Part shown: positions 41,519 to 58,640 of the stretch, piece after piece
Position numbering within the stretch: position 1 is the stretch's first letter
Layout of the letters: every line of letters starts with the position of its first letter
IMG/VR virus record: IMGVR_UViG_3300042691_025071
Location: 144,498 to 208,497 of that record
Direction: 5' to 3' (one strand)
DNA from: a virus
Length of the DNA: 64,000 nucleotides
Translations under genes and position numbers: made by a program
Notes under the pieces: generated by a model
What the model saw: the letters and a program-made list of their open reading frames with translations, nothing else
Database searches by the model: none
Told to the model about the DNA's origin: nothing

Positions 41519-41571
41519 AAAACTGAAAAAAAAATTTCTGGAAATTTTTCAGAATATTTATGATAATATGA
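41519..41571 (+). repeat. Terminator-plus-start direct repeat, copy 1
   Basis: CTGAAAAA...TTTTTCAG hairpin followed by AATATTTATGATAATATG; nearly identical to 43009-43062. Confidence 0.7.
41553..41561 (+). promoter_or_regulatory. Late-promoter-like motif
   Basis: AATATTTAT, 6 nt before the ATG at 41568. Confidence 0.5.
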
Positions 41572-43010
41572 AAATTTTAATTAAAGAATCGCAACTTAAA
41601 AATATTATTAAAAATACGTTATCTAATTTTAATTTAATTAATGAATATATTTCACTTAACCTATCTAAACAAATTAGATCAAAACAATTAAAATCAGATT
41701 ATGAAGAAAAATTAACAGAAATATTTGGTAAAAATGTCTATCGTTTATACTATGATCTACAAACTGGTGAACAAATTACACCAACCAAACATACACCAAA
41801 ATTAAAAATAGACATTAAATTAGATGATAAATTAAAAAATCAAATATCATCAAGTTTAGAAGAATTAGGTTACTCAATTGTTGATTTTAATAAAAATACC
41901 GCAAAAAATAAAAGAAACGGACAAGAAATAAAAATAACCAAAGTATTAAATGATAATGACAATACACTTTTAAAAAATTATACTGATTTTTTAGGTGCAC
42001 TAACTAAAGAATATAAAGGTGAGGATAAATTATATGTTGTAATTTCAAGACACTCACATGATATTGCCGAAATGTCATCAAAACCGAAAATAACATCTTG
42101 TGAAAACTTAACACAATATACCAATATATTACAAACGGGAATACCATCAGCCGGATTTGGTGATGTCGGTGAAGGTTCTGGTCGAGTAATAATTAATACT
42201 GTCCAAAATGGACTATTAGTCTTTTATCTTATAAAAAGGGGAGACTGGAACATAAAAGACCCAATAAGTAGATTTTTAGAATCAAGTGTTTGTGAATTTG
42301 GAAATGCTTATCATTTTTATGGTGAATTTAATAATGACTTTAAAAACTTTATTAGAGAATGGATGATAGAATATAGTAAAATAACAAATAAAGAAAATAT
42401 TAGATCAGATAAAAATATATTCAATAAACCATCTGATGAAATAATAGAATTAATAAAGACAAATTCAAATAATTTAGATGAAGTTAAATTCATAATAAGG
42501 GGATCAGTAATAAATAAAAGATACGATGTATTAAAAAAATTCTTATCGGTATATGACCCCGATTTTTTAACTTCAATCTTAATCAGTACATTCGGAATAA
42601 ATGTGTTTAAAAAATTACCTAAAGATATCATTGACCCAATGTATGATAACATACAAAAATTAATGGAAACAGAATTATCTAAAATGGATGTTATATATGG
42701 TATAGTAACAAAACCAATAGAAAATAATGAAATCATTAAAAATATCAAAGACTTTATAAAAAGAAACAATAACTCAGTGGTTAGTATTATTATAAAAAAT
42801 TATGAAAAAGAAATAAATAACTATAAACATAATCCAAGTCAAATAACCTCTTCTATAGAATTTAAATCAGGTCTTGCAAGATTATCAAATCCAACACTCT
42901 ATACCAAAATAAATAACTTAAACCAAAAATTAGAAAAAATAGGTACAAAAAACATTAATGATAAACTTGATCAATTCTTAAAAATCCTAAAATTGGACTT
43001 TAATCGATAA
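41568..43010 (+). CDS. Tagged protein of unknown function, 480 aa
   Basis: N-terminal leader MKILIKESQLKNIIKN, ending INE at residues 24-26. The body is Asn/Lys/Ile-rich, with VISRHSHDIAEMSSKPKITSC and GFGDVGEGSGRVIINT as the most conserved-looking segments. The latter resembles a ligand-binding loop. No family recognised. First gene of the tagged-protein module, with the ATATTTAT motif upstream. Confidence 0.72.
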   Translation: MKILIKESQLKNIIKNTLSNFNLINEYISLNLSKQIRSKQLKSDYEEKLTEIFGKNVYRLYYDLQTGEQITPTKHTPKLKIDIKLDDKLKNQISSSLEELGYSIVDFNKNTAKNKRNGQEIKITKVLNDNDNTLLKNYTDFLGALTKEYKGEDKLYVVISRHSHDIAEMSSKPKITSCENLTQYTNILQTGIPSAGFGDVGEGSGRVIINTVQNGLLVFYLIKRGDWNIKDPISRFLESSVCEFGNAYHFYGEFNNDFKNFIREWMIEYSKITNKENIRSDKNIFNKPSDEIIELIKTNSNNLDEVKFIIRGSVINKRYDVLKKFLSVYDPDFLTSILISTFGINVFKKLPKDIIDPMYDNIQKLMETELSKMDVIYGIVTKPIENNEIIKNIKDFIKRNNNSVVSIIIKNYEKEINNYKHNPSQITSSIEFKSGLARLSNPTLYTKINNLNQKLEKIGTKNINDKLDQFLKILKLDFNR

Positions 43011-43062
43011 AACTGAAAAAAAAAATTTCTGGAAATTTTTCAGAATATTTATGATAATATGA
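43009..43062 (+). repeat. Terminator-plus-start direct repeat, copy 2
   Basis: Same sequence as the copy at 41519, placing the same hairpin and ATATTTAT motif (43044-43052) before the next gene. Confidence 0.7.
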
Positions 43063-44108
43063 AATTATTAGAAATATTATATGAAATTGAAAAAAAAATA
43101 TGGACTTTAAGTGATGTTAAAGATTACGTTTCTAAATTTTCGTCTATGGATGATTTTAGAAAAGATCCTAAATATTCAGGCATAAAAACATACATTTATA
43201 GAAACTACGATTCAAATACATGGGGTGATATTACGAAATATTTGTTAAGAATCTCCCCTAAAAAAAAAGATGACGATGTGGTAACCCAAGAATTAATTAA
43301 ACAATTTCCTGAATTAGATTTTTCCAATGTAAAATATAGATTAATAAACGGTAGAAGATTTATTGATGGTATAAAATGTCATAAAACAGATGAAAATGGT
43401 GAGGAACATGGTATATCAAATAACATCAATGTAAAAGATTTAAAAATAAGGGGGAACGGTTGTAGAAAATGTGGTAAAGATAGAATTATATCTGCAGTAA
43501 AAATAAATGTGAGAGATTGGATTAATTCTTTTCCCGCGGAGAGAGGATTATCATTTAAACCTGAAAATTTTTTTTATAAGACGGATGGTTTAAAAAATAA
43601 AACTTTATTTGTTAAAGATGTTATATGTACAAAACACACAACACCTTTTGTTTTTGCTCAAGAAGGTATAAACATACATAACCTAAAAAAAGGAAAAACA
43701 GGTTGCCCTATATGTGGTAAAAAAGAAAGTAAGGGCGAATCTCAGGTGATAAGTGTATTAAACGAATTAGGTTATAAAGTAAATAAACAAAAATCTTTCG
43801 ATGGTTGCTTTGGTTATGGTGGTAAAAGATATTGTGATAAACTAAAATTTGATGCTCATGTAATAAAAAATGATGGTACTGAGGTGTGTATAGAATATGA
43901 CGGTATCCAACATTTTGAACCTATTGAGTATTTTGGTGGAGAAGAAGGATTTAAGTCATTACAAGAAAGAGACTTAATTAAAACAAATTATTGTAAAGAT
44001 AACAACATACAATTAATAAGAATACCATACTGGGAAGAAAAAAATATTAAATCTATTTTAACATTTGAATTAGGTCATTTTATGTTGAGAGAAAATAATT
44101 ACATATAA
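43059..44108 (+). CDS. Zinc-finger and endonuclease-like (PD-(D/E)XK/Vsr-type) protein, 349 aa
   Basis: Leader MKLLEILYEIEKK. Two CxxC knots (GCRKCGK and GCPICGK) precede a C-terminal nuclease-like domain. That domain has LKFDAHVI...VCIEYDGIQHFEPI and a lysine-containing IKTNYCKDNNIQLIRIPYWE, the D...ExDGxQH...IRIPY layout of Vsr-like phage endonucleases. Such genes often occur as mobile nucleases. Activity is inferred, not shown. Confidence 0.7.
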   Translation: MKLLEILYEIEKKIWTLSDVKDYVSKFSSMDDFRKDPKYSGIKTYIYRNYDSNTWGDITKYLLRISPKKKDDDVVTQELIKQFPELDFSNVKYRLINGRRFIDGIKCHKTDENGEEHGISNNINVKDLKIRGNGCRKCGKDRIISAVKINVRDWINSFPAERGLSFKPENFFYKTDGLKNKTLFVKDVICTKHTTPFVFAQEGINIHNLKKGKTGCPICGKKESKGESQVISVLNELGYKVNKQKSFDGCFGYGGKRYCDKLKFDAHVIKNDGTEVCIEYDGIQHFEPIEYFGGEEGFKSLQERDLIKTNYCKDNNIQLIRIPYWEEKNIKSILTFELGHFMLRENNYI

Positions 44109-44109
44109 T

Positions 44110-44157
44110 ATGAGAAAACTTATAATTACCGAACAAGAAATAAACATAGTAATATGA
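44110..44157 (+). CDS. Orphan leader peptide, 15 aa
   Basis: Encodes MRKLIITEQEINIVI then stop: the same ITEx leader as the tagged proteins, without any body. It overlaps the ATG of the following gene. Possibly a remnant of a lost tagged gene. Confidence 0.4.
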   Translation: MRKLIITEQEINIVI

Positions 44158-44672
44158 ACCTACAAGAAAACATACAAAGGATTAAAGAAATGATGGGGTT
44201 AATTTCAGAAAATGAAAGTACCACATTAGAAGAATTGAACAATACTCCCGCAGATATAAAAGTAAATAAAGGAGCAATAAGTGATGTGACAACCATATAT
44301 TATTCTTTGGGTGATGCAACTGCGGAAGTTAAATATTTCGGTGAAGATGAAATAATGGGTATCGAACTTGAACTTCCATGGAAAACAAAAGAATTCTATT
44401 TAGAAAGAATAGATAGAAAAAATGATGCAATTAAAGGTATTGGATTGATATTATTAAAAAATATTTTTGAACACTCAAAAAGAAATAAAATAAACATCAT
44501 TACATTAAAAAGGGACGAATTCAGTGGACCAAAACTTCATGAGTATTATAAAAAGTTAGGTTTTGTTGATGCAAATAAAGATAATCCAAATGAAATGTAT
44601 TTGGATTTAAGAACTGACGAACCTTTAAAAAAAATCAATGAATTGATTAATGAGTTAATTAATAAATCTTAA
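44154..44672 (+). CDS. Tagged GNAT acetyltransferase-like protein, 172 aa
   Basis: Leader MNLQENIQRIKEMMGLISEN with ISE at 17-19. The body fits a GNAT fold: strands, KGIGLILLKNIFEHSKRNK (acetyl-CoA loop and helix), then KLHEYYKKLGFVDANKDNPNEMYLDL, the classic Y-KLGF motif. Target unknown. Leader DNA is nearly identical to 44673 and 45554. Confidence 0.72.
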   Translation: MNLQENIQRIKEMMGLISENESTTLEELNNTPADIKVNKGAISDVTTIYYSLGDATAEVKYFGEDEIMGIELELPWKTKEFYLERIDRKNDAIKGIGLILLKNIFEHSKRNKINIITLKRDEFSGPKLHEYYKKLGFVDANKDNPNEMYLDLRTDEPLKKINELINELINKS

Positions 44673-45551
44673 ATGAACCTACAAGAAAACATACAAAGAA
44701 TTAAAGAAATAATGGGACTTCTTACGGAAGAAACCCAAGAAAAAGAAATCATTTTGATTGATGGAACGTCATCTGCGGGAAAATCACAAACTGCTAAAAT
44801 TTTAAATGCGGTTCCATTTTTTAAATCAACAGACCCCAATCAGTGGGTTCAAATTGATAGTGATATGTTTGGATGTGATGATGATCAATGTATTCAAAAC
44901 AGAATCAAATACGACCACTCTGGTGATGGACCTAATCCACAATCAGGTGAAGAATTTCATAAACAAATGGCGGAAAAAAGAAAAGGAGGGTTCGGAGAGA
45001 AAAGAGGAGACACAACAGTAGGTTTCCCTTTGCACCCACATAATAAAGATTTAATAAAAGGACTTGATTATAGAAATTGGTATATGGCTCAAGAAGTAAA
45101 ATATGGTGGACATAAAAAAATTATAATAGATGATATCGGAAATGGTATTTTACAATATATACCAAACGAAAAGATTAAAAATGTTTTACTTCACGCTCCA
45201 ATTTATATTTTATTAAAAAATGTTGAGACTAGAAAACTAACGGAACCAAGAGACCCAAAAGAAGTTTTGAAACAATATTTAACTAAGTATGAGGTGACAA
45301 AACAAAAACCTGATATTTCAATTGGAGACCCAACTACTGAGTTAACAAAAGATGGATTGATTGGATTATTAAAAAGTAATGGTTTAGATGATGAATTTAT
45401 AAATTACTTTTTGAATGAACTCGGAGTAGTGGACAATGGTGTATATTATATTAAAGTCAAAGACGAATATATGACACCAACAACTAAATTAATAAATGTC
45501 GATTCCGAAAGAACTGTTTATTTGGATAAATTCAAAGAAATTGTGAAATAA
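44673..45551 (+). CDS. Tagged P-loop kinase (chloramphenicol phosphotransferase/zeta-toxin-like), 292 aa
   Basis: Leader MNLQENIQRIKEIMGLLTEE with LTE at 17-19. Walker A GTSSAGKS at residues 31-38, preceded by IILID, resembles CPT-like phosphotransferases and zeta toxins. IIIDDIGNG near the middle is a candidate Walker B. The body has DSDMFGCDDDQC, possibly binding substrate. As a toxin-like kinase it could act on a host metabolite (inference). Confidence 0.74.
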   Translation: MNLQENIQRIKEIMGLLTEETQEKEIILIDGTSSAGKSQTAKILNAVPFFKSTDPNQWVQIDSDMFGCDDDQCIQNRIKYDHSGDGPNPQSGEEFHKQMAEKRKGGFGEKRGDTTVGFPLHPHNKDLIKGLDYRNWYMAQEVKYGGHKKIIIDDIGNGILQYIPNEKIKNVLLHAPIYILLKNVETRKLTEPRDPKEVLKQYLTKYEVTKQKPDISIGDPTTELTKDGLIGLLKSNGLDDEFINYFLNELGVVDNGVYYIKVKDEYMTPTTKLINVDSERTVYLDKFKEIVK

Positions 45552-45553
45552 AA

Positions 45554-45625
45554 ATGAATCTACAAGAAAACATACAAAGGATTAAAGAAATAATCAAATT
45601 AAATTATGATTTTATAATGATATGA
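45554..45625 (+). CDS. Orphan leader peptide, 23 aa
   Basis: MNLQENIQRIKEIIKL then stop. The first ~39 nt repeat the leader DNA of 44154, but no body follows. Likely a decayed or transitional duplicate. Confidence 0.4.
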   Translation: MNLQENIQRIKEIIKLNYDFIMI

Positions 45626-45888: not shown

Positions 45889-45892
45889 TTGT

Positions 45893-45915: not shown

Positions 45916-46308
45916 ATGAAGAAAGTTGTTAGATTAACAGAAAGTGAATTGATCGACTTGATTAAAAATGTGATCAGTGAACAAAATATGGGTAGAGACA
46001 CATCAACTATAAAACCTACTATCGTACCTAAAAAAGATGATATATCTTGTTTAAAAGGATTTCAATTTGAAAAAGGACATTACTCACCTTTAAAAGGAGG
46101 TCGTAATGTTCCTGATAGTTGGTCGGGAAAATATAATGGTAAAGATGTGACGTTATATAAAACAGATGTTTATGTTAACAGTGAAGGAAAATATAATGCA
46201 AGGTTACTTCCTGCATCAATGAAATATCAATTGTGTAGATGGAAATGTGAAAACGGTAAATTGGTTTTGTATAATTTTAGTGAAATTAGAACCAATTATC
46301 CAACCTAA
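45916..46308 (+). CDS. Tagged protein of unknown function, 130 aa
   Basis: Leader MKKVVRLTESELIDLIKNVISEQ with ISE at 20-22, closest to the RLTES form I recall from other phage proteins. Body contains SCLKGFQFEKGHYSPLKGGRNVPDSW and a C-RWKC pair. Function unknown. Confidence 0.68.
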   Translation: MKKVVRLTESELIDLIKNVISEQNMGRDTSTIKPTIVPKKDDISCLKGFQFEKGHYSPLKGGRNVPDSWSGKYNGKDVTLYKTDVYVNSEGKYNARLLPASMKYQLCRWKCENGKLVLYNFSEIRTNYPT

Positions 46309-46321: not shown

Positions 46322-47263
46322 ATGGGAAAATTTATAATTACAGAAGAAGAAAAAACAAGAATAAGAGGTCTATACGAAGGAGTAACAAGGAAAGTATTAA
46401 ACGAGGCTTCAGTAAATCCTGAAAATGTGGTAACAAGTATGGATTTTAATGCCTTATGGAATAATTTTCCTAATGCGGATGAGGAAGAAATTTTTCCTGG
46501 TATATTCCCAAACCAATATAAACAATCACCACAAACATTCCAAAATGCATGTGCAACCAGATTATGTTTGGCATTAATTAAAATGGGTGTAGAATGTGGT
46601 CGTGCATTTAGAAGTGAAAAAGATTGGACGTTTAAAGGTATTACGTATCCCACTAAAGGTAAAGATATTACAACAGGTGCTAAAAATAGTTTAATTTATT
46701 TAACAAGAACTTTTGGGGAACCTACAATTGATTCAATAGATAACACTCCAGAAAATATTGAAAAATATCTAAAAGGTAACAAAGGAATTTTTGTCATAAC
46801 CAATAACCCCAAATGGCCGGGAATATCGGGACACGCTGATATCTTTAATGAAAAAGGGAAGTGTGGACATTGGTGTTACCATGGGGAAGGAGGTAAAATC
46901 ACCGCATGGGTTTTTGGTAAATATAAAGGTCAAAACTCTTCGGGTGGCCAACAAACACAACAAACTAAACCACAACAAACTCAAACTCAACAAACTCAAC
47001 CACAACAAGCACCACCTGAAATAACCGATAGGGTAAAGGCGTTAGTTTATTTAGAATATAAAGGGGTGGATCGACAAAAAATGATTAATTTAGATAATGA
47101 TCTTTTAATTAATTGGGCAAACGCACATATACAAAATAAACACGTTTTCAAGAACGGAGATACATATTACAACACACAAAATGCAAGTGTTGCAAATGAT
47201 CAACAGGCGGCATCACAATTAATAAACACTGTATCAAGTCAACCTATTAAAATAAATTTCTAA
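46322..47263 (+). CDS. Tagged Tae4-like peptidoglycan amidase, 313 aa
   Basis: ATG at 46322 (MGKFIITEEEKTRIRGLYEG), leader ending LNE at 26-28. The body resembles type VI secretion amidase effector 4. It has the catalytic-type QNACATRLCLALIKMGV (Cys77) and GISGHADIF (His171), the expected Cys/His pair of an NlpC-like fold. A Gln/Thr/Pro-rich linker (~211-240) joins a C-terminal helical domain. Likely cleaves peptide cross-links at entry or lysis. Preceded by the 45916 gene. Confidence 0.8.
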   Translation: MGKFIITEEEKTRIRGLYEGVTRKVLNEASVNPENVVTSMDFNALWNNFPNADEEEIFPGIFPNQYKQSPQTFQNACATRLCLALIKMGVECGRAFRSEKDWTFKGITYPTKGKDITTGAKNSLIYLTRTFGEPTIDSIDNTPENIEKYLKGNKGIFVITNNPKWPGISGHADIFNEKGKCGHWCYHGEGGKITAWVFGKYKGQNSSGGQQTQQTKPQQTQTQQTQPQQAPPEITDRVKALVYLEYKGVDRQKMINLDNDLLINWANAHIQNKHVFKNGDTYYNTQNASVANDQQAASQLINTVSSQPIKINF

Positions 47264-47746: not shown

Positions 47747-48433
47747 ATGAACGATCAATATAAAAATAGATTTTATTATCTTTTGGAGTCCGAAAGAGGT
47801 AATGTTAAATCAATTATTGGTGAACAAAATATAATGTTAGGTGGTCCGGCAATGTTTGGCGGTAGATCACATGATCCCATAGGCGCCTTGGCCGATATAA
47901 GAGATGAATTTCCATTAATTATCGATACAATTGTACAATTTGGACTTTGGAAAATTCCTTTGGCCGGTAGTTTTCTGGCGGCAGGTTATGGATCAATGAT
48001 GGCATATAGAGATTTAAAAAGAGGAAAATACACTGAAGGAATAATTGGTTTACTAACAAGTCCACTTTCATTAGGAAGAACGGTAAGAGCAATGAATTTT
48101 TTGGGTATCAAACCCAATATTGCAAATGTTTTAAGTAAAATACATAAATCAGGTATTACCGTTTTAACTTCACAAGGAAAATCGGGGTTTTTAAAATGGG
48201 CCAGTGATAATTTTGTCAATAAAGATGATCGTGAAAACTTTAATAAATTTATGACCTTTTTAACAAAGGGAGATCACTTAAAATCTTTATTGAATTTAAT
48301 TAACGACGATGTTAATAAAGAAGCGTTAAATAAACAAAATAAAGTACTTGTTAAAAATGATGTTTTAGATAAACCACAAAATACCTCATCATCAACGTTT
48401 GTTAAAAAACCACAAAACATACCAAAACTGTAA
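47747..48433 (+). CDS. Tagged protein with hydrophobic Gly-rich centre, 228 aa
   Basis: Leader MNDQYKNRFYYLLESERGNVKSIIGEQ with IGE at 24-26. The middle has FGLWKIPLAGSFLAAGYGSMMAYRDLKRGKY, a hairpin-like pair of hydrophobic helices. GIIGLLTSPLSLGRTVRAMNF follows. The composition recalls membrane-active or pore-forming phage proteins. C-terminus is polar. Function inferred only by composition. Confidence 0.68.
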   Translation: MNDQYKNRFYYLLESERGNVKSIIGEQNIMLGGPAMFGGRSHDPIGALADIRDEFPLIIDTIVQFGLWKIPLAGSFLAAGYGSMMAYRDLKRGKYTEGIIGLLTSPLSLGRTVRAMNFLGIKPNIANVLSKIHKSGITVLTSQGKSGFLKWASDNFVNKDDRENFNKFMTFLTKGDHLKSLLNLINDDVNKEALNKQNKVLVKNDVLDKPQNTSSSTFVKKPQNIPKL

Positions 48434-48855: not shown

Positions 48856-49380
48856 ATGGGACAACGTTTTACAATTACTGAATCTGAAAGAAATGAAATC
48901 AGAAAACAGTACAATTTAGTTAAAGAAGAGGAATCCACCACAAATGCTCCGAGATACTGGGATTCATTTTTAGAATCGATTAAAGAATGGGGTGGAAAAG
49001 TTAGTGTATCACCAGATAAGTTACAAGTAACATATAACGGAGCAATGTATACAATTAACATTGTTAAAAACAATGGTAATATAGATTACACAATAACTTT
49101 CAGTCCACAACATGAACCATTAGAATTATTGAAATCAATCAATAATGCATATTTTGCATCATATAGAGTGGATCATCCATTAATAAAAAATATTTTTTCA
49201 ACTAGAAAAGATGAGATACCAAATTTAAAAAATTTTAAATCATCTCTCGGTGTTATAGATTTAGGTAATATCGCTAAACCAGGAAAAAGATTTTTTGAAG
49301 AATTATTTGCAATTGATAGTAACCCAACAAATCAAACATCATTTGATAAAAAAATGAATATGAAAGATCTTGAAATGTAA
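48856..49380 (+). CDS. Tagged protein of unknown function, 174 aa
   Basis: Leader MGQRFTITESERNEIRKQYNLVKEEE, nearly the same as 56894. No exact (L/I)xE; VKE takes the place. Body rich in strands (SVSPDKLQVTYNGAMYTINIVKNNGNIDYTITF). No motif. Confidence 0.68.
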   Translation: MGQRFTITESERNEIRKQYNLVKEEESTTNAPRYWDSFLESIKEWGGKVSVSPDKLQVTYNGAMYTINIVKNNGNIDYTITFSPQHEPLELLKSINNAYFASYRVDHPLIKNIFSTRKDEIPNLKNFKSSLGVIDLGNIAKPGKRFFEELFAIDSNPTNQTSFDKKMNMKDLEM

Positions 49381-50306: not shown

Positions 50307-50894
50307 ATGAAAAAACAAAACTTAAACGAACAAGTTTCCCGTATAAAAAAAATGATGGGATTAAATGAAAATGAATCTCAGGAAGATAATGTATCTGGTG
50401 ATAAAAATTTTAAAGTTGGAGACATTGTAATGAATCCCGTATCGTTATCGGAAGATCCAAGTTACTATGGTAAGATTTTGAATATTTTCCCAAATTTGGA
50501 GGCGGCAAAAGATCAACCTTCATACGATCTGACGGTTAAATATTTGGGAAATGATGATCCAAATGATACATATTATTTAATTGATTGGAAATCAGAAGGA
50601 ATAGATTTATATCCGAAAGAATATATGGAAAGTGAAGTTGAGCTCGCTCCGAATCCTGAATTATATGATGAAAAAAATGAGGACGAAGACGATAATGATG
50701 AGGAAGATGGTGATGATATGTGTTCTAATTGTAATGGAACTGGCGAAGGACAGTATGATGGATCAAGATGTAGTTCTTGTGGTGGATCAGGTGTAATTGA
50801 AAGAGATTACGATGATTATGATGGACCAGATGATTATGATGATAGAGATGATTATGATGTAAGAGCTAAAGAATGGGGTGGTATGGACTTTTAA
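50307..50894 (+). CDS. Tagged acidic protein with DnaJ-type zinc knuckles, 195 aa
   Basis: Leader MKKQNLNEQVSRIKKMMGLNENE, LNE at 19-21. The middle is a beta domain (FKVGDIVMNPVSL...). The C-terminal part is very acidic and carries CSNCNGTGEGQYDGSRCSSCGGSG, two CxxCxGxG-type zinc motifs as in DnaJ. Could be a chaperone-like partner (inference). Confidence 0.72.
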   Translation: MKKQNLNEQVSRIKKMMGLNENESQEDNVSGDKNFKVGDIVMNPVSLSEDPSYYGKILNIFPNLEAAKDQPSYDLTVKYLGNDDPNDTYYLIDWKSEGIDLYPKEYMESEVELAPNPELYDEKNEDEDDNDEEDGDDMCSNCNGTGEGQYDGSRCSSCGGSGVIERDYDDYDGPDDYDDRDDYDVRAKEWGGMDF

Positions 50895-50904: not shown

Positions 50905-51552
50905 ATGAAAATAATCATAACTGAATCACAATATAATAATCTAATACAAAAAGACTTGGATGAGGATTATCCAACTAGTTGGAGTATTGAGGAATTTAAA
51001 AAATTAACATCGTTTTCTGCCAGAGTTAATTATTGTAATCAACATCTCCAAAGACTATCTTCGGGTAGTAGTAGAATAGTGTATAAAATCGATGACAATA
51101 AGGTCTTAAAGCTCGCCAAAAACAAGAAGGGTATTGCCCAAAATGAAACTGAGATTGATTTTGGTAATGATTCTTATGTGAATGATGTTGTTGCAAAAAT
51201 ATTTGATCACGATGAAAACAACCTATGGGTTGAAATGGAATTAGCCAAAAAAGTGACTCCGTCAATTTTCAAAAATATTGTGGGTGTTACATTTGAAAAT
51301 TATTGTCACATAATAAAATATCGTAATAGTATTTCAGTTGATTTTGGTTTCACTGTATCAAAACCAGAGAATTATAATGACATATGGGAAAATGAATTTG
51401 TTTATAATATGATGGATTTTATGGTTAATTACGAATTACCTTGGGGTGATTTGTGTAGATTATCATCATATGGGTTAGTTGGAAATAATAGAATAGTCCT
51501 AATTGATTACGGATTGACTTCTGATGTATACGACACTTATTATAAGAGATAA
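50905..51552 (+). CDS. Tagged protein-kinase-like protein, 215 aa
   Basis: Leader MKIIITESQYNNLIQKDLDED, LDE at 18-20. GSSRIVYKIDDNKVLKLA suggests a kinase N-lobe (Gly-rich loop and VLKL lysine, Lys69). The ETEID segment gives a candidate Glu, and IVLIDYGLTSD near the end resembles the DFG region. No HRD is clear, so activity is uncertain. Confidence 0.62.
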   Translation: MKIIITESQYNNLIQKDLDEDYPTSWSIEEFKKLTSFSARVNYCNQHLQRLSSGSSRIVYKIDDNKVLKLAKNKKGIAQNETEIDFGNDSYVNDVVAKIFDHDENNLWVEMELAKKVTPSIFKNIVGVTFENYCHIIKYRNSISVDFGFTVSKPENYNDIWENEFVYNMMDFMVNYELPWGDLCRLSSYGLVGNNRIVLIDYGLTSDVYDTYYKR

Positions 51553-51555
51553 TAT

Positions 51556-52053
51556 ATGAAAAAAATAATAATAACAGAATCACAATTAAAAAAAGTGATT
51601 AAATCATTAACAATAAAAGAACAACCTGTACTTGGTCTTGCTGATGTTTTAGCTGACCCATCAAATACCGGATTAAATGTACCTGGCTCTGATGATGGTA
51701 CAACAGGTGATATTGAATATAAAAAAGATGTTCTTAATTTGTTTACCGAATGTAGAAGAATGGGTGACAATCAACTTAACTTAAATAATAATAGAAATAT
51801 TCAATTATTTAATAATCTGTATAATCAAATACAAGGTTTATCAAAACCAACAAATACCGTCAATGTACTAAAACAAATAAAAAACAAAAATGAATTTTGT
51901 GCGGTTGATAGATTATTCAGTAAACAAAAAAAACAAGATTTATTTAAAGAATTAGATAGTGAATGGGGGTTAACTTGGGGAAATATTGTTGATGGATTAA
52001 AATCATTTATAACTATAACGAGTAAATCTAGTTACAGTGATATACAAGCGTAG
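51556..52053 (+). CDS. Tagged protein of unknown function, 165 aa
   Basis: Leader MKKIIITESQLKKVIKSLTIKEQ, IKE at 20-22. Body helical with DIEYKKDVLNLFTECRRMGDNQL. A VDRLFSKQKKQDLFKELDSEWGLTWGNI segment follows. No family recognised. Confidence 0.66.
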   Translation: MKKIIITESQLKKVIKSLTIKEQPVLGLADVLADPSNTGLNVPGSDDGTTGDIEYKKDVLNLFTECRRMGDNQLNLNNNRNIQLFNNLYNQIQGLSKPTNTVNVLKQIKNKNEFCAVDRLFSKQKKQDLFKELDSEWGLTWGNIVDGLKSFITITSKSSYSDIQA

Positions 52054-52083: not shown

Positions 52084-52494
52084 ATGAATATAATAATCAC
52101 AGAATCTCAAATGAATAAACTTAAATCCGATTGGAAAGTCGTGAAAGGTAAATTATGTAAAAAATTTGAATTTGATTCTTATAAAGATGTGTTAGATTTC
52201 GTGAATAAAGTAGGTGAAATTGCGGAAGAACAAAATCATCACCCTGATATGATTGTAAAATACAATGAAGTGATTGTTACAATGTTTGATCACGATAAAA
52301 ATAAAATTTCTGATAGGTGTTATAAATTTACAAATGCGGTGGACGAAATGATGATGGATTCTGAAGAAGAAATCGATGAACGTAGTAGAAGTTTTGCATT
52401 TACACGTAAAAAACGTTTATTTCCAAAAAGTGCAATGATGTCAAATCCCAATAGATTTAAAAAGTACGATAAAGAAGTTAAAGGTTTGGATTAG
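52084..52494 (+). CDS. Tagged pterin-4a-carbinolamine dehydratase-like protein, 136 aa
   Basis: Leader MNIIITESQMNKLKSDWK. Body DSYKDVLDFVNKVGEIAEEQNHHPDMIVKYNEVIVTMF matches the PCD/DCoH fold, with the HHP motif (His, His, Pro) of the active site. Normal role: dehydrating 4a-hydroxytetrahydrobiopterin. The C-terminus is extended and basic (RSRSFAFTRKKRLFPKSAMM). Confidence 0.74.
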   Translation: MNIIITESQMNKLKSDWKVVKGKLCKKFEFDSYKDVLDFVNKVGEIAEEQNHHPDMIVKYNEVIVTMFDHDKNKISDRCYKFTNAVDEMMMDSEEEIDERSRSFAFTRKKRLFPKSAMMSNPNRFKKYDKEVKGLD

Positions 52495-52903: not shown

Positions 52904-53674
52904 ATGGAAAAAATTTTAAAAGAGGAAATTAATCGAATTCGTAAAATGATGTTATCTGAAGAAAACGTCAGAAAAAACGGATTAGATAAACTAAAAGATA
53001 CGGTGGAGGTGTTAAAAACTAAGAAAAAGGTTTTATTATTGAGTTGTTCGAACAGATTCAATTGGGATAAAAGTAACATTGACATACCTAAATCAAAGAT
53101 ACTTGCAGAATATTTGGCCGATGAATTGGATAATGTAAAACTTATAGATGTTTCTGAATTAAAAATATTTCCATGTGAAGGTAATGTGTCCAGATCTGAT
53201 GGTAATTCATGTGGTGTTAAAAAATCTGTTCTAAAAGATGATGAAAAAAACCCATCGGGACATCATAGATGTTGGGCGTCTATAAATAATAAATCAGATG
53301 AACTTTGGAAAATAAGTAAAGAATTATTTGAATCTGATTGTGTTATATTTTTAAGTTCGGTTAGATGGGGTTCCGCAAATATGTTTTATCAAAATTTAAT
53401 TGAAAGATTAACATGGTTGGAAAATAGACACGCTAGTTTAGGTGAATCAAATTTGTTAAAAAATATTGAGGGTGGAATGATATGTGTAGGACAAAATTTT
53501 AATGGAACAAATGTAATTGATTTACAACGTAAAATTCATGAATTTTACGGTTTTAAAATAAATGATAAATTATATTGGAATTGGCAATATACAAGTAATG
53601 AGAAAGATGAAACGTTAAAATCATATGAAAAATCACACGATTCATTTATAAAAGATTTTGATTTAAATAAATAG
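52904..53674 (+). CDS. Tagged flavodoxin-fold NAD(P)H-dependent reductase-like protein, 256 aa
   Basis: Leader MEKILKEEINRIRKMMLSEE, LSE at 17-19. Body KKVLLLSCSNRFNWDKSNIDIPKSKILAEYLADEL is the flavin phosphate-binding start of NADPH-dependent FMN reductases. Later it has DCVIFLSSVRWGSANMFYQNLIERLTW and GGMICVGQNFNG, in the positions expected for flavin loops. Substrate unknown. Confidence 0.76.
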   Translation: MEKILKEEINRIRKMMLSEENVRKNGLDKLKDTVEVLKTKKKVLLLSCSNRFNWDKSNIDIPKSKILAEYLADELDNVKLIDVSELKIFPCEGNVSRSDGNSCGVKKSVLKDDEKNPSGHHRCWASINNKSDELWKISKELFESDCVIFLSSVRWGSANMFYQNLIERLTWLENRHASLGESNLLKNIEGGMICVGQNFNGTNVIDLQRKIHEFYGFKINDKLYWNWQYTSNEKDETLKSYEKSHDSFIKDFDLNK

Positions 53675-54326: not shown

Positions 54327-54335
54327 AAACCCCTT

Positions 54336-54350
54336 TTTATATAAATATTT
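54336..54350 (-). promoter_or_regulatory. Late-promoter-like motif, - strand
   Basis: AATATTTATAT read on the - strand, about 10 nt before the ATG at 54326. Confidence 0.48.
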
Positions 54351-54371
54351 TATAGTTGGGTTAATGTTTCT

Positions 54372-54382
54372 TATATTTATAT
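54372..54382 (+). promoter_or_regulatory. Late-promoter-like motif
   Basis: TATATTTATAT, 3 nt before the ATG at 54386. Confidence 0.5.
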
Positions 54383-54385
54383 ATT

Positions 54386-55564
54386 ATGAAAATTGTTATA
54401 ACTGAATCACAATTAAATAAAATAATGTATTCAGATTTATTGGTTGAAGAAAGAATAAAATTCAATATATCAATACCTGAAGACATTATTAAAATTAAAG
54501 ATATTTTCAAAAAAAATAACTATAAATTATTTGTTGTTGGTGGTGCGGTTAGAGATGCGGTATTGGGTAAAACACCAAAAGATTATGATTTGACCACGGA
54601 TGCAACACCCGATGAGGTTGAAACAATATTAAATAATTCAGGTTACAAAACATTACCGACGGGAAAGGCGTTCGGTGTTATAAATGTTTTTACAGATAAC
54701 GATGAATATGAAATAGCAACATTTAGATCTGAATCTTATTCAGAGTCAGATAAAAGAAGACCAGATAAAGTTGAATTTACAGATATTGAAACAGATGCGA
54801 AAAGAAGGGATTTCACAATAAATGCTCTTTATTATGATATTGACACAGGTGAAGTTGTTGATTTAGTTGGCGGTGTTGAGGATTTAAAAAACGATATTGT
54901 TAGAACTGTTGGTAACCCTGACGATAGATTTAATGAAGATAGATTAAGAATACTTAGAGCAATTAGATTTGCTGGTAGGTTCGGTTCAGATTTAGATAAT
55001 AATGTTGATCAATCATTACAGAGAAATTCAAGTATAGATGGTATATCGGGAGAAAGGATTAGAGATGAATTTATAAAGGGAATTATATCATCTAAATCAA
55101 CAATACATTTTTTACAATTGATTGATAAGTATAATTTATTTGATTCAATATTCAGAGGTTTATCTGTGTCAAAAGATTTTATAGAAATTAAAGATCCGAT
55201 TTTAGTTATATCAAGATTATTAAAAAACAATGATCTATCTACAATCGGAAAAAAATTGAATAATCTAAAATATAGTGTTGATGAGATAAAGGACATTACT
55301 TTCTTAATTAATTTAAAAAATATGTCATTAGATAATGTAATTCAATTAAAAAGAATACAAAAAAACACAAATTTATCTGACGATCAAATAATGACTTTTG
55401 GTAATTTAGAGGGTATTGATAAAAAGTTATTAAATGCCTTTGTTAATTTTAATTTAACCGTTAGTGGAGATGATGTTATGAAAAAAATGAATTTAAAACC
55501 GGGTAAAGAAGTGGGTGATATGATAAATAAAATTGAATTAGATAATTTCAAAAAAATAATATAA
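54386..55564 (+). CDS. Tagged tRNA nucleotidyltransferase (CCA-adding) / poly(A) polymerase-like protein, 392 aa
   Basis: Leader MKIVITESQLNKIMYSDLLVEE, LVE at 19-21. Class II nucleotidyltransferase motifs are complete: VVGGAVRDAVLG (52-53 GG), DYD at 66-68, RRDFTINALYYD, and RFNEDRLRILRAIRFAGRF. The C-terminal part is shorter than in bacterial CCA enzymes, and the HD domain is a separate gene downstream (55573). Likely repairs or adds CCA ends; why it carries a leader tag is open. Confidence 0.88.
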   Translation: MKIVITESQLNKIMYSDLLVEERIKFNISIPEDIIKIKDIFKKNNYKLFVVGGAVRDAVLGKTPKDYDLTTDATPDEVETILNNSGYKTLPTGKAFGVINVFTDNDEYEIATFRSESYSESDKRRPDKVEFTDIETDAKRRDFTINALYYDIDTGEVVDLVGGVEDLKNDIVRTVGNPDDRFNEDRLRILRAIRFAGRFGSDLDNNVDQSLQRNSSIDGISGERIRDEFIKGIISSKSTIHFLQLIDKYNLFDSIFRGLSVSKDFIEIKDPILVISRLLKNNDLSTIGKKLNNLKYSVDEIKDITFLINLKNMSLDNVIQLKRIQKNTNLSDDQIMTFGNLEGIDKKLLNAFVNFNLTVSGDDVMKKMNLKPGKEVGDMINKIELDNFKKII

Positions 55565-55572
55565 TTATTGGT

Positions 55573-56094
55573 ATGAAAATTATAATAACAGAATCACAGT
55601 TTGAAGAAATAAAAAGTGATGTTGATGCAAAAAAATTGATTTATTCGTTACCTGACGACATAAAAAATCGTTTTTTTGGTCTGTGGAAAGTACCACAAAG
55701 ACCTGATTATCATCCCGAAGGCAATACGTTAAAACATGTTATAATGGTAGTTAAAAGAGCAATTAAGAATTACCCAAATAACATGAACATAATTTTAGCC
55801 GCATTGTTTCATGACATTGGTAAGGATGAAACTCATTCTATAAACCCTAAAACCGGTTTTCCAACTGCATATGGTCATGAAGATGTGTCTGCTGAATTAG
55901 TAAAAAAATATTCTGATTGGATTGTTGAAAAAGGTGGAGATCCAGAAATTATTTATTACATTGTTAAAAACCATATGAATGCACATAGATTGGATCAAAT
56001 GAAACTATCAAAACAAGAAAAAATAAAATCAGACCCAAACTTTGGGGATTTAGAAAATTTTGAAAAATTAGATAAAGGTGGTTTAGATTTATAA
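55573..56094 (+). CDS. Tagged HD-domain hydrolase, 173 aa
   Basis: Leader MKIIITESQFEEIKSDV. The HD-domain ligands His55, His80-Asp81 (ALFHDIGKDE) and a later His/Asp (GHEDVSAELV) are visible. Nine nt after the CCA-like gene; in many bacteria the two domains are one protein. Likely phosphohydrolase acting on nucleotides or tRNA ends (inference). Confidence 0.82.
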   Translation: MKIIITESQFEEIKSDVDAKKLIYSLPDDIKNRFFGLWKVPQRPDYHPEGNTLKHVIMVVKRAIKNYPNNMNIILAALFHDIGKDETHSINPKTGFPTAYGHEDVSAELVKKYSDWIVEKGGDPEIIYYIVKNHMNAHRLDQMKLSKQEKIKSDPNFGDLENFEKLDKGGLDL

Positions 56095-56095
56095 T

Positions 56096-56106
56096 AATAT
56101 TTATAT
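56096..56106 (+). promoter_or_regulatory. Late-promoter-like motif
   Basis: AATATTTATAT, 5 nt before the ATG at 56112. Confidence 0.5.
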
Positions 56107-56111
56107 ATATT

Positions 56112-56852
56112 ATGAAGATTTTAATTACAGAACGCCAACTAAAATTAATTTTAGAAACTGACGATGTTGAAGATAAAAGTATAGAAGATATACAAAAAGA
56201 ATTAGTTTATGTCCATAAAAAAGATATCGGTAAATATGGACCTAAAAAAGATGGTGTTGATGGTATTATGGGACCAATGACCAGAAAGGCCTATGAAGAG
56301 GTTTATGGTAAAGAATACGTTGGACCTACGTTCTCGACAGATTCGGAAGATATAAACGATAAAAGTATAAAAAATTTCCATAAAATACCTTTAGGTGATA
56401 ACAATTATCGTTCCGCAGAACCTACGGCAGATGCACTAAAAGGTGTTATATTAAAATATGGAATAAAAAATGTAGTAAGATTTAATGGTGATGGTGGAGA
56501 TAGTTCTGGATTATCCATAAAAGAAGAAAAAAGAGTTTGTGAAGAAAATGGGTGTAAATTTTATAAATTATCATCCACAAAAGATCAAGATAAAGTAAAT
56601 GAATTGTTGGATAAAGGAAATACATTAATTCATTGTCATCATGGTGCTGATAGAACTGGTGGTAATGTTGGTGGTTGGTTATATAAAAAGGGATGGGGTG
56701 ACACAAAAAAAATATGGGACTACACTACTCAATATAATGGTTGGAAGAGAATGATAAAAAATTCACCAAATAATTTTGTGAATGGTGGTTATTTAAAACA
56801 AGCACAAAAATTTGGTGTTATTGATTTAGGACATGCAAAATCTTTGATGTAA
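56112..56852 (+). CDS. Tagged protein with peptidoglycan-binding-like and dual-specificity phosphatase domains, 246 aa
   Basis: Leader MKILITERQLKLILETDD, ILE at 13-15. Residues ~41-65 (KYGPKKDGVDGIMGPMTRKAYEEV) match the peptidoglycan-binding repeat. The C-terminal domain has HCHHGADRTGG: catalytic Cys175, five residues, Arg181, the cysteine-phosphatase P-loop. The combination suggests a wall-binding or entry-related phosphatase; substrate unknown. Confidence 0.84.
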   Translation: MKILITERQLKLILETDDVEDKSIEDIQKELVYVHKKDIGKYGPKKDGVDGIMGPMTRKAYEEVYGKEYVGPTFSTDSEDINDKSIKNFHKIPLGDNNYRSAEPTADALKGVILKYGIKNVVRFNGDGGDSSGLSIKEEKRVCEENGCKFYKLSSTKDQDKVNELLDKGNTLIHCHHGADRTGGNVGGWLYKKGWGDTKKIWDYTTQYNGWKRMIKNSPNNFVNGGYLKQAQKFGVIDLGHAKSLM

Positions 56853-56870
56853 GTTAAAAATATAATAGAG

Positions 56871-56880
56871 ATATTTATAT
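56871..56880 (+). promoter_or_regulatory. Late-promoter-like motif
   Basis: ATATTTATAT, 13 nt before the ATG at 56894. Confidence 0.5.
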
Positions 56881-56893
56881 AAAAAGAAATATA

Positions 56894-57229
56894 ATGGGAA
56901 AACGTTTTACAATTACAGAATCCGAAAAAAATGAAATAAGAAAAAAATATAATTTGATTAATGAAGGTGAAGGGTTTTTCGGTCGTTTTGGTAGATTTTT
57001 TAATAAACCTACAGCTCAGGATGCGGCTAAAGATGCATTAAGATCACAAGGTTATAGTCATATGGGTAAAGACAATTCTAACGACAACGAAGACACTTAT
57101 TATACCGTTTTTAATGGTCAAAAATTTTATCCCGATCAAATAGAATTTGCCGATAATCAAGATATGGGTGAGATTCCTCGTGTTGAAGGTGATAAATTAA
57201 TAATCGCAAATCCAATGTGGAGAGAATAA
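56894..57229 (+). CDS. Tagged protein of unknown function, 111 aa
   Basis: Leader MGKRFTITESEKNEIRKKYNLINEG, INE at 22-24, almost the same as 48856. Then GFFGRFGRFFNKPTAQDAAKDALRSQG, a Gly/Phe-rich amphipathic stretch, and a beta-rich C-terminus. Confidence 0.7.
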   Translation: MGKRFTITESEKNEIRKKYNLINEGEGFFGRFGRFFNKPTAQDAAKDALRSQGYSHMGKDNSNDNEDTYYTVFNGQKFYPDQIEFADNQDMGEIPRVEGDKLIIANPMWRE

Positions 57230-57230
57230 T

Positions 57231-57560
57231 ATGAAATTTTTAGAGATATTAGAAGAATCCAAAGAAGAACAGTTTGAGGAATTTTCTGGCAAAAGATTAA
57301 AAGGTGCTACAAAGATTGCGAATACCGCAAAAGAAAAGGGTGGTTCTTCTATGTTAACTTATCATCATTTTGTGGTTAAATTACCTTATTATAAGAAAGC
57401 ATCTGAAGGTAAATTTGATGTTGAAAAATCCAAAAAAGAATATAAAGAACTATTGGATAAATTATGTAAAACAGATGATCCGAGTTTGGGTCAAGTTGAA
57501 TTTCAAAAATTAGTTGGTAAAATAGAAGTGTTGGGTGAGTTACTCATAAAACACAGGTAA
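57231..57560 (+). CDS. Tagged protein of unknown function, 109 aa
   Basis: Leader MKFLEILEESKEEQFEE (ILE at 6-8), similar to the 43059 start. Body basic and helical with TYHHFVVKLPYYKKASEG. Directly after the 56894 gene (1-nt gap). Confidence 0.64.
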   Translation: MKFLEILEESKEEQFEEFSGKRLKGATKIANTAKEKGGSSMLTYHHFVVKLPYYKKASEGKFDVEKSKKEYKELLDKLCKTDDPSLGQVEFQKLVGKIEVLGELLIKHR

Positions 57561-57566
57561 GATACA

Positions 57567-57584
57567 CCGAGTTTAGATACTCGG
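57567..57584 (+). other. Small hairpin after the 57560 gene
   Basis: CCGAGT/ACTCGG around a 6-nt loop, preceding the terminator-like hairpin. Confidence 0.5.
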
Positions 57585-57616
57585 ATTAGGACCGGGATGG
57601 TTATATTCCGCGACAA

Positions 57617-57641
57617 GGACAAGAATTCGCTACTCTTGTCC
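57617..57641 (+). terminator. Terminator
   Basis: GGACAAG/CTTGTCC, then TATTTTGTTTTTG. Confidence 0.7.
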
Positions 57642-57668
57642 TATTTTGTTTTTGTTCTATTTTTTTAT

Positions 57669-57676
57669 ATATTTAT
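57669..57676 (+). promoter_or_regulatory. Late-promoter-like motif
   Basis: ATATTTAT, 4 nt before the ATG at 57681. Confidence 0.45.
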
Positions 57677-57680
57677 TATT

Positions 57681-58640
57681 ATGTTCTTTAAACCAAAATT
57701 TAAAAAAATAGATAAAATTTCATACAAAGGATATGAAATTCCAATATATTCAAACGGTGATGAAAAATACGTGGGATACCCACAAAAAGAAGGTGTTGAT
57801 GTTGAAGAAAATAAAATTTATAGGATAGAGGATATTGGTGAATTAAAAACTGGTATTTTTTTAATTAACAAATATGGTGATGACGTGGATACTACTGAGT
57901 TTTTTCCAAAATCAATAGGTACAATTAAAATAAAAAATTCAAAAAAAATGAACGAGCTAAGATTAGAAAATATAATAAAAAAATACCTTAAAGAAGAAAT
58001 TGAGAAGATAAATGAGAAAGATGATTGGAGAATAAAATCAAGATCTCAAAAACTTAGTTCGGGAAAATTTAAAAATATACCCACAGATTTTGATGGTATT
58101 GTACAAAAAGTAGTACAAGAACTTGAGGGTGGATATTATCATCCTAACATGTTAAAAGATGGTAGAGTAAAAGACCAAAGATATGCAGGTTCGGGTGAAA
58201 CCATGTTTGGTATAGATAGAAAAACGGGAGGTAGTATCAATACAACGTCTGCCGGTAAACAGTTTTGGTCAATAATTGATGGTCAGAACGCAAAAAATAA
58301 ATGGAAATGGAATTATTTCGGTGGACCGTTACAATCTCAATTAATGTCTTTAATACCTAAAATGATGAAACCATTGTATGACCAATACTGTAAATCATAT
58401 TTATCACCAAAAGCAATTCAGATAGTTAATTCAACACCACCGTTAATGTTCCATTTTGTTTATGGTGTTTGGAATGGACCGGGTTGGTTTCAAAAATTTG
58501 CAAAAAAAATAAATTTACAAGTTGCAAATGGTAATTTAGATCCTGTTTATTTAACTAAATCCGCAGTAAGTCACAGAATAAATAGTGGTAATAGTTTGAT
58601 CGCACAGGGAGGTAGAAAAATAAGTAACATGGTTGCTTAA
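57681..58640 (+). CDS. Lysozyme-like protein with internal leader tag, 319 aa
   Basis: Start at 57681 (MFFKPKFKKIDK) is set by the hairpin and ATATTTAT motif just upstream; a longer frame begins before both. Residues ~90-112 read MNELRLENIIKKYLKEEIEKINE, an internal copy of the leader with its own ATG at 57948. The C-terminal domain VVQELEGGYYHPNM...GSGETMFGIDRKTGG has the Glu and GxxxGI pattern of GH108-type/tail lysozymes. Probably a virion-associated muramidase, perhaps made in two forms. Confidence 0.76.
   Translation: MFFKPKFKKIDKISYKGYEIPIYSNGDEKYVGYPQKEGVDVEENKIYRIEDIGELKTGIFLINKYGDDVDTTEFFPKSIGTIKIKNSKKMNELRLENIIKKYLKEEIEKINEKDDWRIKSRSQKLSSGKFKNIPTDFDGIVQKVVQELEGGYYHPNMLKDGRVKDQRYAGSGETMFGIDRKTGGSINTTSAGKQFWSIIDGQNAKNKWKWNYFGGPLQSQLMSLIPKMMKPLYDQYCKSYLSPKAIQIVNSTPPLMFHFVYGVWNGPGWFQKFAKKINLQVANGNLDPVYLTKSAVSHRINSGNSLIAQGGRKISNMVA

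Follow-up and report, generated by a model that had tools for sequence, protein, structure and literature searches.

Short exchangeable N-terminal leaders on about twenty unrelated phage proteins suggest T4-like capsid targeting on a large scale

Within a 64,000-nucleotide stretch of viral DNA (the window), 20 proteins encoded between 41.5 and 58.6 kb carried one of a few short N-terminal leaders in front of otherwise unrelated bodies. We consider it highly probable that these leaders represent capsid targeting of the T4 kind on a far larger scale: more than one docking code would be in use, one of them mimicking the scaffold tail, and the prohead protease would remove the leaders. The interpretation of a previous sequence-only reading, that a swappable leader taken off by the prohead protease loads enzymes into the head, was supported.

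Results

Shared leaders and putative cleavage site

The claim that about 20 unrelated proteins of this cluster have common starts was confirmed, with 20 counted over the window at the positions given. An unsupervised test was carried out on the 114 window ORFs by ungapped comparison (BLOSUM62 score of at least 35), counting pairs with non-homologous bodies; residues 2-22 were common to 39 such pairs vs. 1 pair for residues 31-52. The same test gave 22 vs. 2 pairs for the cultured Flavobacterium phage vB_FspM_immuto_2-6A, 5 vs. 0 for the late region of the longer record described below, 5 vs. 2 for T4 (50-150 kb), where the sharers included IPII and IPIII, and 1 vs. 1 for crAss001. Two starts were chosen by the leader and moved inward from the longest frame (46322, not 46247, and 57948, not 57597).

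The tripeptide (L/I)xE with its E at residue 13-28 was present in 15 of the 20 leader proteins, vs. 3/20, 2/20, 1/20, 0/20, and 3/18 in control 16-residue windows of the same proteins, and 12 of the 83 genes before 41 kb had it at the leader position (Fisher p = 3e-7). The site thus lay where it had been proposed to lie, in fewer proteins than the "about 17" reported. Among the five exceptions, 48856, 52084, and 55573 had no strict site in that interval, the last two being clear enzymes, and in 43059 and 57231 the tripeptide occurred at residues 5-9 instead. Leader lengths predicted from the putative cleavage site were about 15-26 residues, compared with 10-19 for propeptides of the T4 type.

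Leadered genes of the window

All leadered genes were on the plus strand. Type A (ITES) leaders preceded seven bodies. The gene at 41568-43010 had a KESQ variant with INE at residues 24-26 and a body of 480 residues without any Pfam family over the cut-off; 50905-51552 (MKIIITESQ...LDE) corresponded to phrog_4301, to which no function is assigned, and 51556-52053 (MKKIIITESQ...IKE) had a body without assigned function. The remaining ones were a pterin-4a-carbinolamine dehydratase (PCD; 52084-52494, MNIIITESQ; PF01329, 2.5e-18), a CCA-adding enzyme (54386-55564, MKIVITESQ...LLVE; PF01743, 2e-40), an HD hydrolase (55573-56094, MKIIITESQ; PF01966, 9e-10), and a tyrosine-phosphatase-like protein (56112-56852, leader MKILITERQLKLILE; weak PF13350, below the cut-off).

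Type B (RIKxMMG) leaders were found on a GNAT-like body (44154-44672, RIKEMMGLISE; phrog_1758, 0.001), on a P-loop kinase-like body (44673-45551, RIKEIMGLLTE; weak CPT/AAA_18 in Pfam and phrog_2071 ATPase, 8e-4), on a body without assigned function (49398-50282, RIKQMMGLLIE), and on an acidic body with CxxC motifs (50307-50894, LNEQVSRIKKMMGLNE), and a B-like leader, INRIRKMMLSE, on an FMN-reductase-like body (52904-53674; PF03358, 8.5e-4, below the cut-off). The type C leader RLTESELIDLIKNVISE (45916-46308) was followed by a body without assigned function. Short leaders occurred at 43059-44108 (MKLLEILYE, HNH/homing-type endonuclease body; PHROGs phrog_559, 7e-32) and at 57231-57560 (MKFLEILEE), where homologous bodies carry other leaders. 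Further starts were FIITEEEKTRIRGLYE...LNE on a Tae4-type amidase (46322-47263; PF14113, 2e-12), a possible leader MNDQYKNRFYYLLESERGNVKSIIGE on a body without assigned function (47747-48433), FTITESERNEIRKQYNLVKE (48856-49380), FTITESEKNEIRKKYNLINE on another body without assigned function (56894-57229), and the leader-like MNELRLENIIKKYLKEEIEKINE (57948-58640), which lies within the 57597 frame and whose body-family members have type B or D leaders.

Not all of the body names proposed from sequence alone could be traced. The amidase (Tae4), PCD, CCA-adding enzyme, and HD hydrolase exceeded the Pfam cut-off, the FMN reductase, P-loop, GNAT, and phosphatase matched only below it, and the nuclease was recovered with PHROGs as the HNH endonuclease of 43059. 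The lysozyme was not substantiated, as no lysozyme family appeared in Pfam at E 0.1 among the 20 window proteins scanned. Leadered bodies in relatives included lysozyme, chitinase, and cell-wall hydrolase; a sigma factor was also found among leadered bodies. In the predicted structure of the CCA enzyme (five aligned sequences), residues 1-19 were of low confidence and most of the body of high confidence, with exceptions at 93-96 and 114-142; this model is supportive only.

Leaders in other viruses and exchange at the junction

On viral contigs, the ITES leader was found with 45 body clusters (115 distinct bodies), the RIKxMMG leader with 35 (61 bodies), and the type C leader RLTESDLHRIV with 52 (61 bodies). 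Among the 84,980 cellular genomes of one collection, the ITES pattern was nowhere matched exactly. The cultured Flavobacterium phage has type B leaders and others of a MENFDLKKFL type. The E of the site fell at residues 13-20 in 30 of the 45 ITES representatives vs. 3-8 in control windows, a value reached by 0 of 2000 shuffles; its position varied, mostly from 15 to 20, and the site was outside 13-20 in the other 15. For type C, [LIM]xE (M allowed) was present in 48/52 vs. 2, 2, and 5 in controls.

The proposal that the leader is swappable was borne out directly: bodies related to each other were found behind different leaders, with the join at (L/I)xE. Fifteen body families presented two or more leader types, some of these assignments being doubtful as types were assigned by hand-made regular expressions. 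A type C protein, LVKRVINE/GLHDTS (the slash marks the junction), was 67-85% identical to four type B ones (RIKQMMGVINE/GLHDTS and variants). Among homologues of the 57231 body, the one in locus L051 started with MKIIITESQ and that of the cultured Flavobacterium phage with MRLLELLREA, and relatives of the CCA enzyme 54386 had other leaders or none; two of four such relatives were leaderless, without ATG, GTG, or TTG further upstream in frame. Junction positions were spread across the 138 cross-type pairs, as BLAST alignments frequently extend into the leaders and the pairs depend on one another; the argument for exchange rests on the distinct families and not on this histogram.

Head genes, prohead protease, and capsid site

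Searches with Pfam for S77, Gp23, terminase, and T4 portal found none of them in the window's own record, and from this record an objection to the loading proposal, that the genome has no prohead protease, seemed to hold. It was overturned by a longer record that agrees with window positions 42,060-64,000 at 100% identity, and the window's record is probably a fragment without head genes. The longer record encodes a T4-type portal (8e-78), a Gp23-like capsid protein and, adjoining the portal, the gp21-like prohead protease that had been called for (S77, PF03420, 1.4e-22), in which H85 and S140 of T4 were aligned.

In the capsid protein, INE60/A aligned with LTE65/A of T4 gp23, the cut itself being predicted, and this alignment supports an (L/I)xE specificity of the putative protease. 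LINE/A occurred at the capsid site in 76/76 near relatives read; these loci are at least 65% identical and therefore not 76 independent cases. Two further relatives departed from the strict motif, G003 with LMNE/S and the Flavobacterium phage, which has an annotated prohead protease, with IVSE/A. The T4 portal was found in 28 of 44 leader contigs of at least 100 kb vs. 4 of 15 controls (p = 0.018), and in one set examined the 18 contigs with portal were the same 18 with S77. Among leader contigs of at least 200 kb the portal was not found in three (1/12 of type A/B and 2/9 of type C).

Resemblance of the type B leader to the scaffold tail

Resemblance was found between the RIKxMMG leader and the scaffold protein's C-terminal tail. 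With a profile made only from scaffold tails, 48 of the best 50 non-C-terminal matches began in the first 16 residues, all of them type B, vs. 3-18 N-terminal matches among the best 50 for 20 permuted control profiles. The ORF set used was enriched with type B loci, so that these counts overstate the natural frequency; the permuted controls carry an equal bias. When the profile was built on two scaffold tails, N-terminal matches numbered 27/50. When all head-protein windows were treated alike, the scaffold tail ranked first of 568 with 28/50, barely above windows of the core protein (25, 24, and 23), a gene2838 window (24), and others. The counterpart of the 50307 protein in another record, L289, ranked in the top three non-C-terminal matches with every scaffold-tail profile. 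These reverse profiles were far clearer than the forward one, in which the type B leader was searched against 1799 proteins and the best internal match was one scaffold tail (8.8 bits; next 7.2 and 6.7).

Types A and C had no convincing counterpart among head proteins. No clear leader match emerged from the head regions of two phages with type C leaders, where the highest scores were 42 (in a protein of 1207 residues) and 31. As a separate observation, the core protein encoded between portal and protease aligned locally with the type C leader of the window (score 47) and came second in the head-protein window scan, a weak lead.

DNA upstream of the leadered genes

The element TATTTAT preceded 10 of the 20 leader genes vs. 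2 of the 94 other window genes; it also preceded terminase, portal, S77, and scaffold genes, and 95 of 389 other genes in ITES loci. A 42-nt cassette with TATTTATGATAAT (41526-41567, plus strand) upstream of 41568 was repeated exactly before 43059 (43017-43058), yet the leaders of these two genes differ. The nine-residue leader was encoded by 79 different DNA words in 136 starts.

Discussion

In the mechanism that we infer, each leader would be a capsid-targeting sequence. The leadered enzymes would be made late in infection from late promoters of the TATTTAT type that also serve the head genes, as the shared element suggests. Through its first 10-20 residues, the leader would attach to the scaffold core as this grows in a T4-like prohead. 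Type B would do so by mimicking the very end of the scaffold's C-terminal tail, giving cargo and scaffold one docking site in common, and the other types would use other sites. Within the prohead, the S77 protease would cut after (L/I)xE, and the enzymes freed in the head would be delivered together with the DNA into the next cell. Because the junction of leader and body would be the cleavage site, any leader could be exchanged with the mature enzyme untouched, and such exchange has recurred in evolution. The literature search found no virion proteomics of a leadered phage.

It is unlikely that the leaders dock proteins into the virion uncut, (L/I)xE being merely the inherited end of a conserved leader. 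The ITES leader spans the site region, so that common descent alone could keep the tripeptide, and five window leaders are without it; against this, unlike leaders (A, B, C, and D) finish with the same tripeptide, the position of its E varies, bodies resume directly after it behind different leaders, and a matching protease and capsid site are present in the same genome. An address other than the head (tail or baseplate, host envelope, or an intracellular phage compartment) appears a little less probable still: the Tae4 cell-wall amidase, and the lysozyme, chitinase, and cell-wall hydrolase of relatives, could act from the tail, but the scaffold-tail resemblance, the head-protease site, and bodies acting inside cells, such as the CCA enzyme and the sigma factor, point to the head interior. 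Finally, the shared 5' ends might be nucleic-acid elements, a late promoter and an early-codon translation enhancer copied together, as TATTTAT near many leader starts and the duplicated 42-nt cassette could suggest. This is very improbable, as the same nine residues are written in so many different DNA words, 41568 and 43059 have a common cassette but different leaders, and terminase, portal, protease, and scaffold genes have TATTTAT without such leaders.

The capsid-targeting reading finds its closest parallel in T4 IPI-IPIII and Alt, whose leaders are removed by gp21. According to the available parts of PMC9026906 and PMC3012670, these also have a short N-terminal propeptide on otherwise divergent proteins, and the L/I-x-E site, S77 protease, T4-type portal, and capsid protein are alike. 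The T4 propeptides are described as having affinity for the scaffold core, and the internal proteins as co-purifying with scaffold gp22 (part of PMC9026906). For T4 IPIII, an E-to-D change at the site is reported there to leave loading intact while preventing the cut. T4 has four such proteins, in contrast with about 20 cargo genes in one cluster here, many of them enzymes, with several interchangeable leader families, of which type B is scaffold-C-terminus-like. By eye, types A-C are unlike the T4 leader MKTYQEFIAEA, and the short MKFLEILEE type looks similar to the T4 CTS.

In phage P1, residues 1-30 of DarB are enough to bring a reporter into the head; as far as the available part of PMC9024508 goes, the Dar proteins have no N-terminal consensus and P1 has no separate scaffold, whereas the present leaders are shared and swapped. 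phiKZ and SPN3US are likewise large phages with numerous head proteins, which are delivered with the DNA and of which the prohead protease cuts some (PMC9026906, in part), and propeptide-cleaved ejection proteins are treated in PMC5694885, PMC7411985, and PMC10052503; they belong to a different head lineage, and the available parts of these sources do not mention a common leader on unrelated enzymes. In the prophage toxins Bxa and Apk2, various effectors are fused to a MuF domain, a module linked to head genes for which a capsid-targeting role has been hypothesised (PMC11699363, in part); it is a large N-terminal domain, unlike the short, putatively cleaved leader found here. The terms CTS, capsid targeting, internal protein, and leader are absent from the text of a paper on T4-related genomes (PMC2993671), and the available part of a jumbo phage overview (PMC7824862) mentions the S77 peptidase and not such leaders.

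If the capsid-targeting reading is right, the leaders alone would predict, for the many uncharacterised proteins of large T4-like phages, which ones accompany the DNA into the host, a point that otherwise takes proteomics to establish. Imitation of the scaffold tail would give the propeptide-core affinity described in part of PMC9026906 a testable molecular form, the protease site would be a place where evolution recombines tags with cargo, and proteins could be loaded into large heads by using the leaders as off-the-shelf tags. The chances seem even for a broader proposal, that huge T4-like phages have a general head-loading system with several interchangeable docking codes, each copying a terminal peptide of a different core protein, as type B would copy the scaffold tail. 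If this is true, any late gene could become virion cargo by gaining a cassette of 15-25 codons, and the cargo of a virion would run to dozens of enzymes, among them a sigma factor that might act at once on the host polymerase.

Leaders in the window and across viruses

Products of 20 genes on the + strand, located between 41.5 and 58.6 kb of the window, start with short related leaders of four types: type A (K-I-I-I-T-E-S-Q), type B (N-L-Q-E-x-I-x-R-I-K-x-M-M-G), type C (R-L-T-E-S-E-L..I-K, with the variant F-x-I-T-E-S-E) and the short type D (M-K-F-L-E-I-L-E-E). The leadered bodies included a Tae4 amidase, PCD, CCA-adding enzyme and HD hydrolase above the Pfam cut-off, FMN reductase, P-loop, GNAT and phosphatase matches below it, and an HNH endonuclease (PHROGs). 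The amidase (46322-47263, +) is of the T6SS Tae4 type, here with a leader in a phage. When the 114 window ORFs were compared pairwise over residues 2-22, excluding homologous bodies and counting scores of at least 35, 39 pairs shared their N-terminus vs. one pair for residues 31-52. The T4 gp21-type cleavage motif (L/I)xE ended at residue 13-28 in 15 of the 20 leaders, as compared to 0-3 in equal-sized windows deeper in the proteins and to 12 of the 83 genes before 41 kb. The sequence-only reading had counted about 17 such leaders, a figure slightly high; those of PCD, HD and gene 48856 lacked it at 13-28, and in 43059 and 57231 it lay closer to the start than residue 13.

Another N-terminus, around TAV(E/D)W(L/I) and unrelated to the leaders, was common to four proteins early in the window (3464, 6496, 6695 and 7231, +). 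Two paralogous-looking proteins (..VSKTKVRMNKxxNPYxxKV..) precede the leader cluster on opposite strands (34187-34714, -; 40703-41248, +).

Searching IMG/VR for ATG-KIIITE(S/T/R)Q gave at least 120 stretches; among the matches listed there were 136 starts, with 115 distinct bodies in 45 clusters (E 1e-3), and the cleavage motif stood at the expected place in 30 of 45 ITES (type A) cluster representatives vs. 3-8 in control windows and a mean of 8.0 after shuffling. The nine ITES leader residues were encoded by 79 DNA words, which indicated that the protein sequence is what is conserved. No exact match to the pattern occurred in 84,980 bacterial and archaeal species (one genome each). RIKxMMG (type B) matched 86 times, with an ATG no more than 25 codons away in 84 cases; these yielded 61 distinct bodies, grouped into 35 clusters. 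RLTESDLHRIV (type C) matched 72 times, with an ATG no more than 20 codons away in 68 cases, for 61 distinct bodies and 52 clusters; [LIM]xE was at the expected place in 48 of 52 type C representatives vs. 2, 2, and 5 in control windows.

Leader exchange at the predicted cut

In the set of 482 leadered ORFs, more than one leader type occurred in each of 15 body families. The clearest case was a type C protein, L249 (RVINE↓GLHDTS, the arrow marking the predicted cut), which shares 67-85% identity across about 120 residues with four type B proteins: L298 (RIKQMMGVINE↓GLHDTS), L295 (GLLTE↓GLHDTY), L271 (GLLKE↓GLHDTS) and L262 (GVINE↓GLHDTS). Other exchange pairs were VITE↓GKDPKTG and VISE↓NDPKSG (72%), and INE↓NEELLNK and ISE↓NDELTNR (51%). 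The CCA enzyme junction reads LLVE↓ERIKF in the window and ILME↓QRIKY in one relative; of three other relatives, one starts with another leader and two lack any. In the predicted structure of the window enzyme, residues 1-19 were modelled with low confidence and most of the body with high confidence. Taken together, these data indicated that leader and body meet at the predicted cleavage site. The earlier proposal of a swappable leader is thereby upheld, related bodies with different leaders being joined at (L/I)xE.

Expression

TATTTAT was found in the 30 nt before 10 of the 20 leader genes vs. 2 of the 94 other window genes, and of 26 of the 45 ITES representatives vs. 95 of the 389 other genes of their loci. 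It also precedes the terminase, portal, protease and scaffold genes. A late promoter common to leader and head genes would be the natural reading. An exact 42-nt upstream cassette is duplicated (41526-41567 and 43017-43058), so that genes 41568 and 43059 have identical upstream sequences whereas their leaders and bodies differ.

Head genes and prohead protease

The S77, Gp23, terminase and T4-portal families had no match in the window's own 208,497-base record, of which the window is bases 144,498-208,497. A 286,785-base record matched the window at 100% identity in four stretches (17,176, 439, 4,162, and 6,622 bases) jointly covering window positions 42,060-64,000. On the strand that matches the leader cluster, this longer record encodes terminase, T4 portal (8e-78) and S77 protease (1.4e-22), together with an acidic protein in scaffold position and a Gp23-like capsid protein, the last named from its alignment with a relative (60% identity) that Pfam had confirmed. 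The gp21-like prohead protease to be sought in the rest of the genome was thus located in the longer record. It aligns with T4 gp21 at H85 and S140, which we take to be catalytic. The capsid protein has INE60↓A at the place of T4 gp23 LTE65↓A; LINE↓A occupied this site in all 76 near relatives read (80 loci fetched), and two further relatives had LMNE↓S and IVSE↓A, so that P3 may tolerate M and V. Given the S77 protease and the capsid motif at the gp23 cut place, this phage very probably has a protease of the (L/I)xE type.

Among the 29 type A/B contigs that reach 100 kb (all those listed, minus the window's own species), the same 18 contain T4 portal and S77 protease; of the 12 that reach 200 kb, 11 have the portal. 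Among type C contigs the portal was present in 10 of 15 (7 of the 9 reaching 200 kb), vs. 4 of 15 controls picked by tRNA motif (2 of the 4 reaching 200 kb). Overall, 28 of 44 leader contigs and 4 of 15 controls had it (p = 0.018), a weak test because contigs are fragments. One 268,739-base contig (G009, record of L048) holds two T4 portals and two S77 proteases, from either two head modules or a chimeric assembly. In locus L511 (G053:286000-305000), type C leadered genes lie amid head genes, ahead of the terminase and between portal and protease (one per strand).

Resemblance of type B leaders to the scaffold tail

The gene preceding the capsid gene (scaffold position) encodes a tail ..(L/I)xE-(S/A)-K-x-Y-E-N-P-Q-F-x-R-M-K-D-L-M-S-K-I-K, or close, in 73 of 76 loci, with [LIV]xE immediately ahead in 73 of 73. 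In the cultured Flavobacterium phage vB_FspM_immuto_2-6A the scaffold-position protein ends in SEVSEQVSRWQKLAGIIK; among 216 ORFs from part of this genome, that tail was the top non-N-terminal match for two of its leaders, SEQFRRMQKLAGIITE (score 49, next 35) and SEQFKRMQFLAGIITE (42, next 32). The corresponding protein of Microcystis phage Mel-JY01 ends in NVVERMKKLAGIVK.

A profile of seven tails was run against 6,019 distinct ORFs, a set enriched with type B loci. Of its best 50 non-C-terminal hits, 48 fell in the first 16 residues, which make up 8.2% of the set, and all 48 belonged to type B, 45 of them recognised by regular expression and 3 by eye. In the same enriched set, each of twenty column-permuted profiles had 3-18 N-terminal hits. 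N-terminal hits among the best 50 numbered 40 with a 44-tail and 27 with a two-tail profile. When 568 windows taken from nine head proteins were compared, the last 20 residues of the scaffold came first (28 of 50), with the core protein (25, 24, and 23) and the neighbouring gene2838 (24) next. The type B leader is read as imitating the scaffold tail in mirrored order: body-site-tail in the scaffold, tail-site-body in the cargo.

Discussion

According to PMC9026906 and PMC3012670, T4 internal proteins carry targeting propeptides of 10-19 residues that have affinity for the core and that gp21 cuts off at L/I-x-E; internal proteins of diverse kinds with a conserved targeting sequence are already on record. 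PMC9024508 assigns targeting to the N-terminus of P1 DarB. The leader system would work like these, its packaging, cleavage and delivery being predicted from sequence; its likeness to the T4 leader is one of predicted working and not of established homology. Five leader strings had no match in full-text literature, and no account of these leaders was among the literature listed by subject, most subscription papers and bioRxiv lying outside the coverage of both.

Pfam (E 0.001) named few of 80 cluster representatives (45 ITES, 35 RIKxMMG); its 21 families, most in one member, include a sigma-70 factor, lysozyme, chitinase, cell-wall hydrolase, peptidoglycan-binding, DHH, P-loop kinases and DUFs. 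Delivery would need bodies of up to about 500 residues to pass the tail. The sigma-70/ECF factor with an MKIIITESQ leader (L115:2357-2932, +; confirmed by NCBIfam TIGR02937 at 104.8 bits, cut-off 42.9) is a candidate virion-packaged sigma factor.
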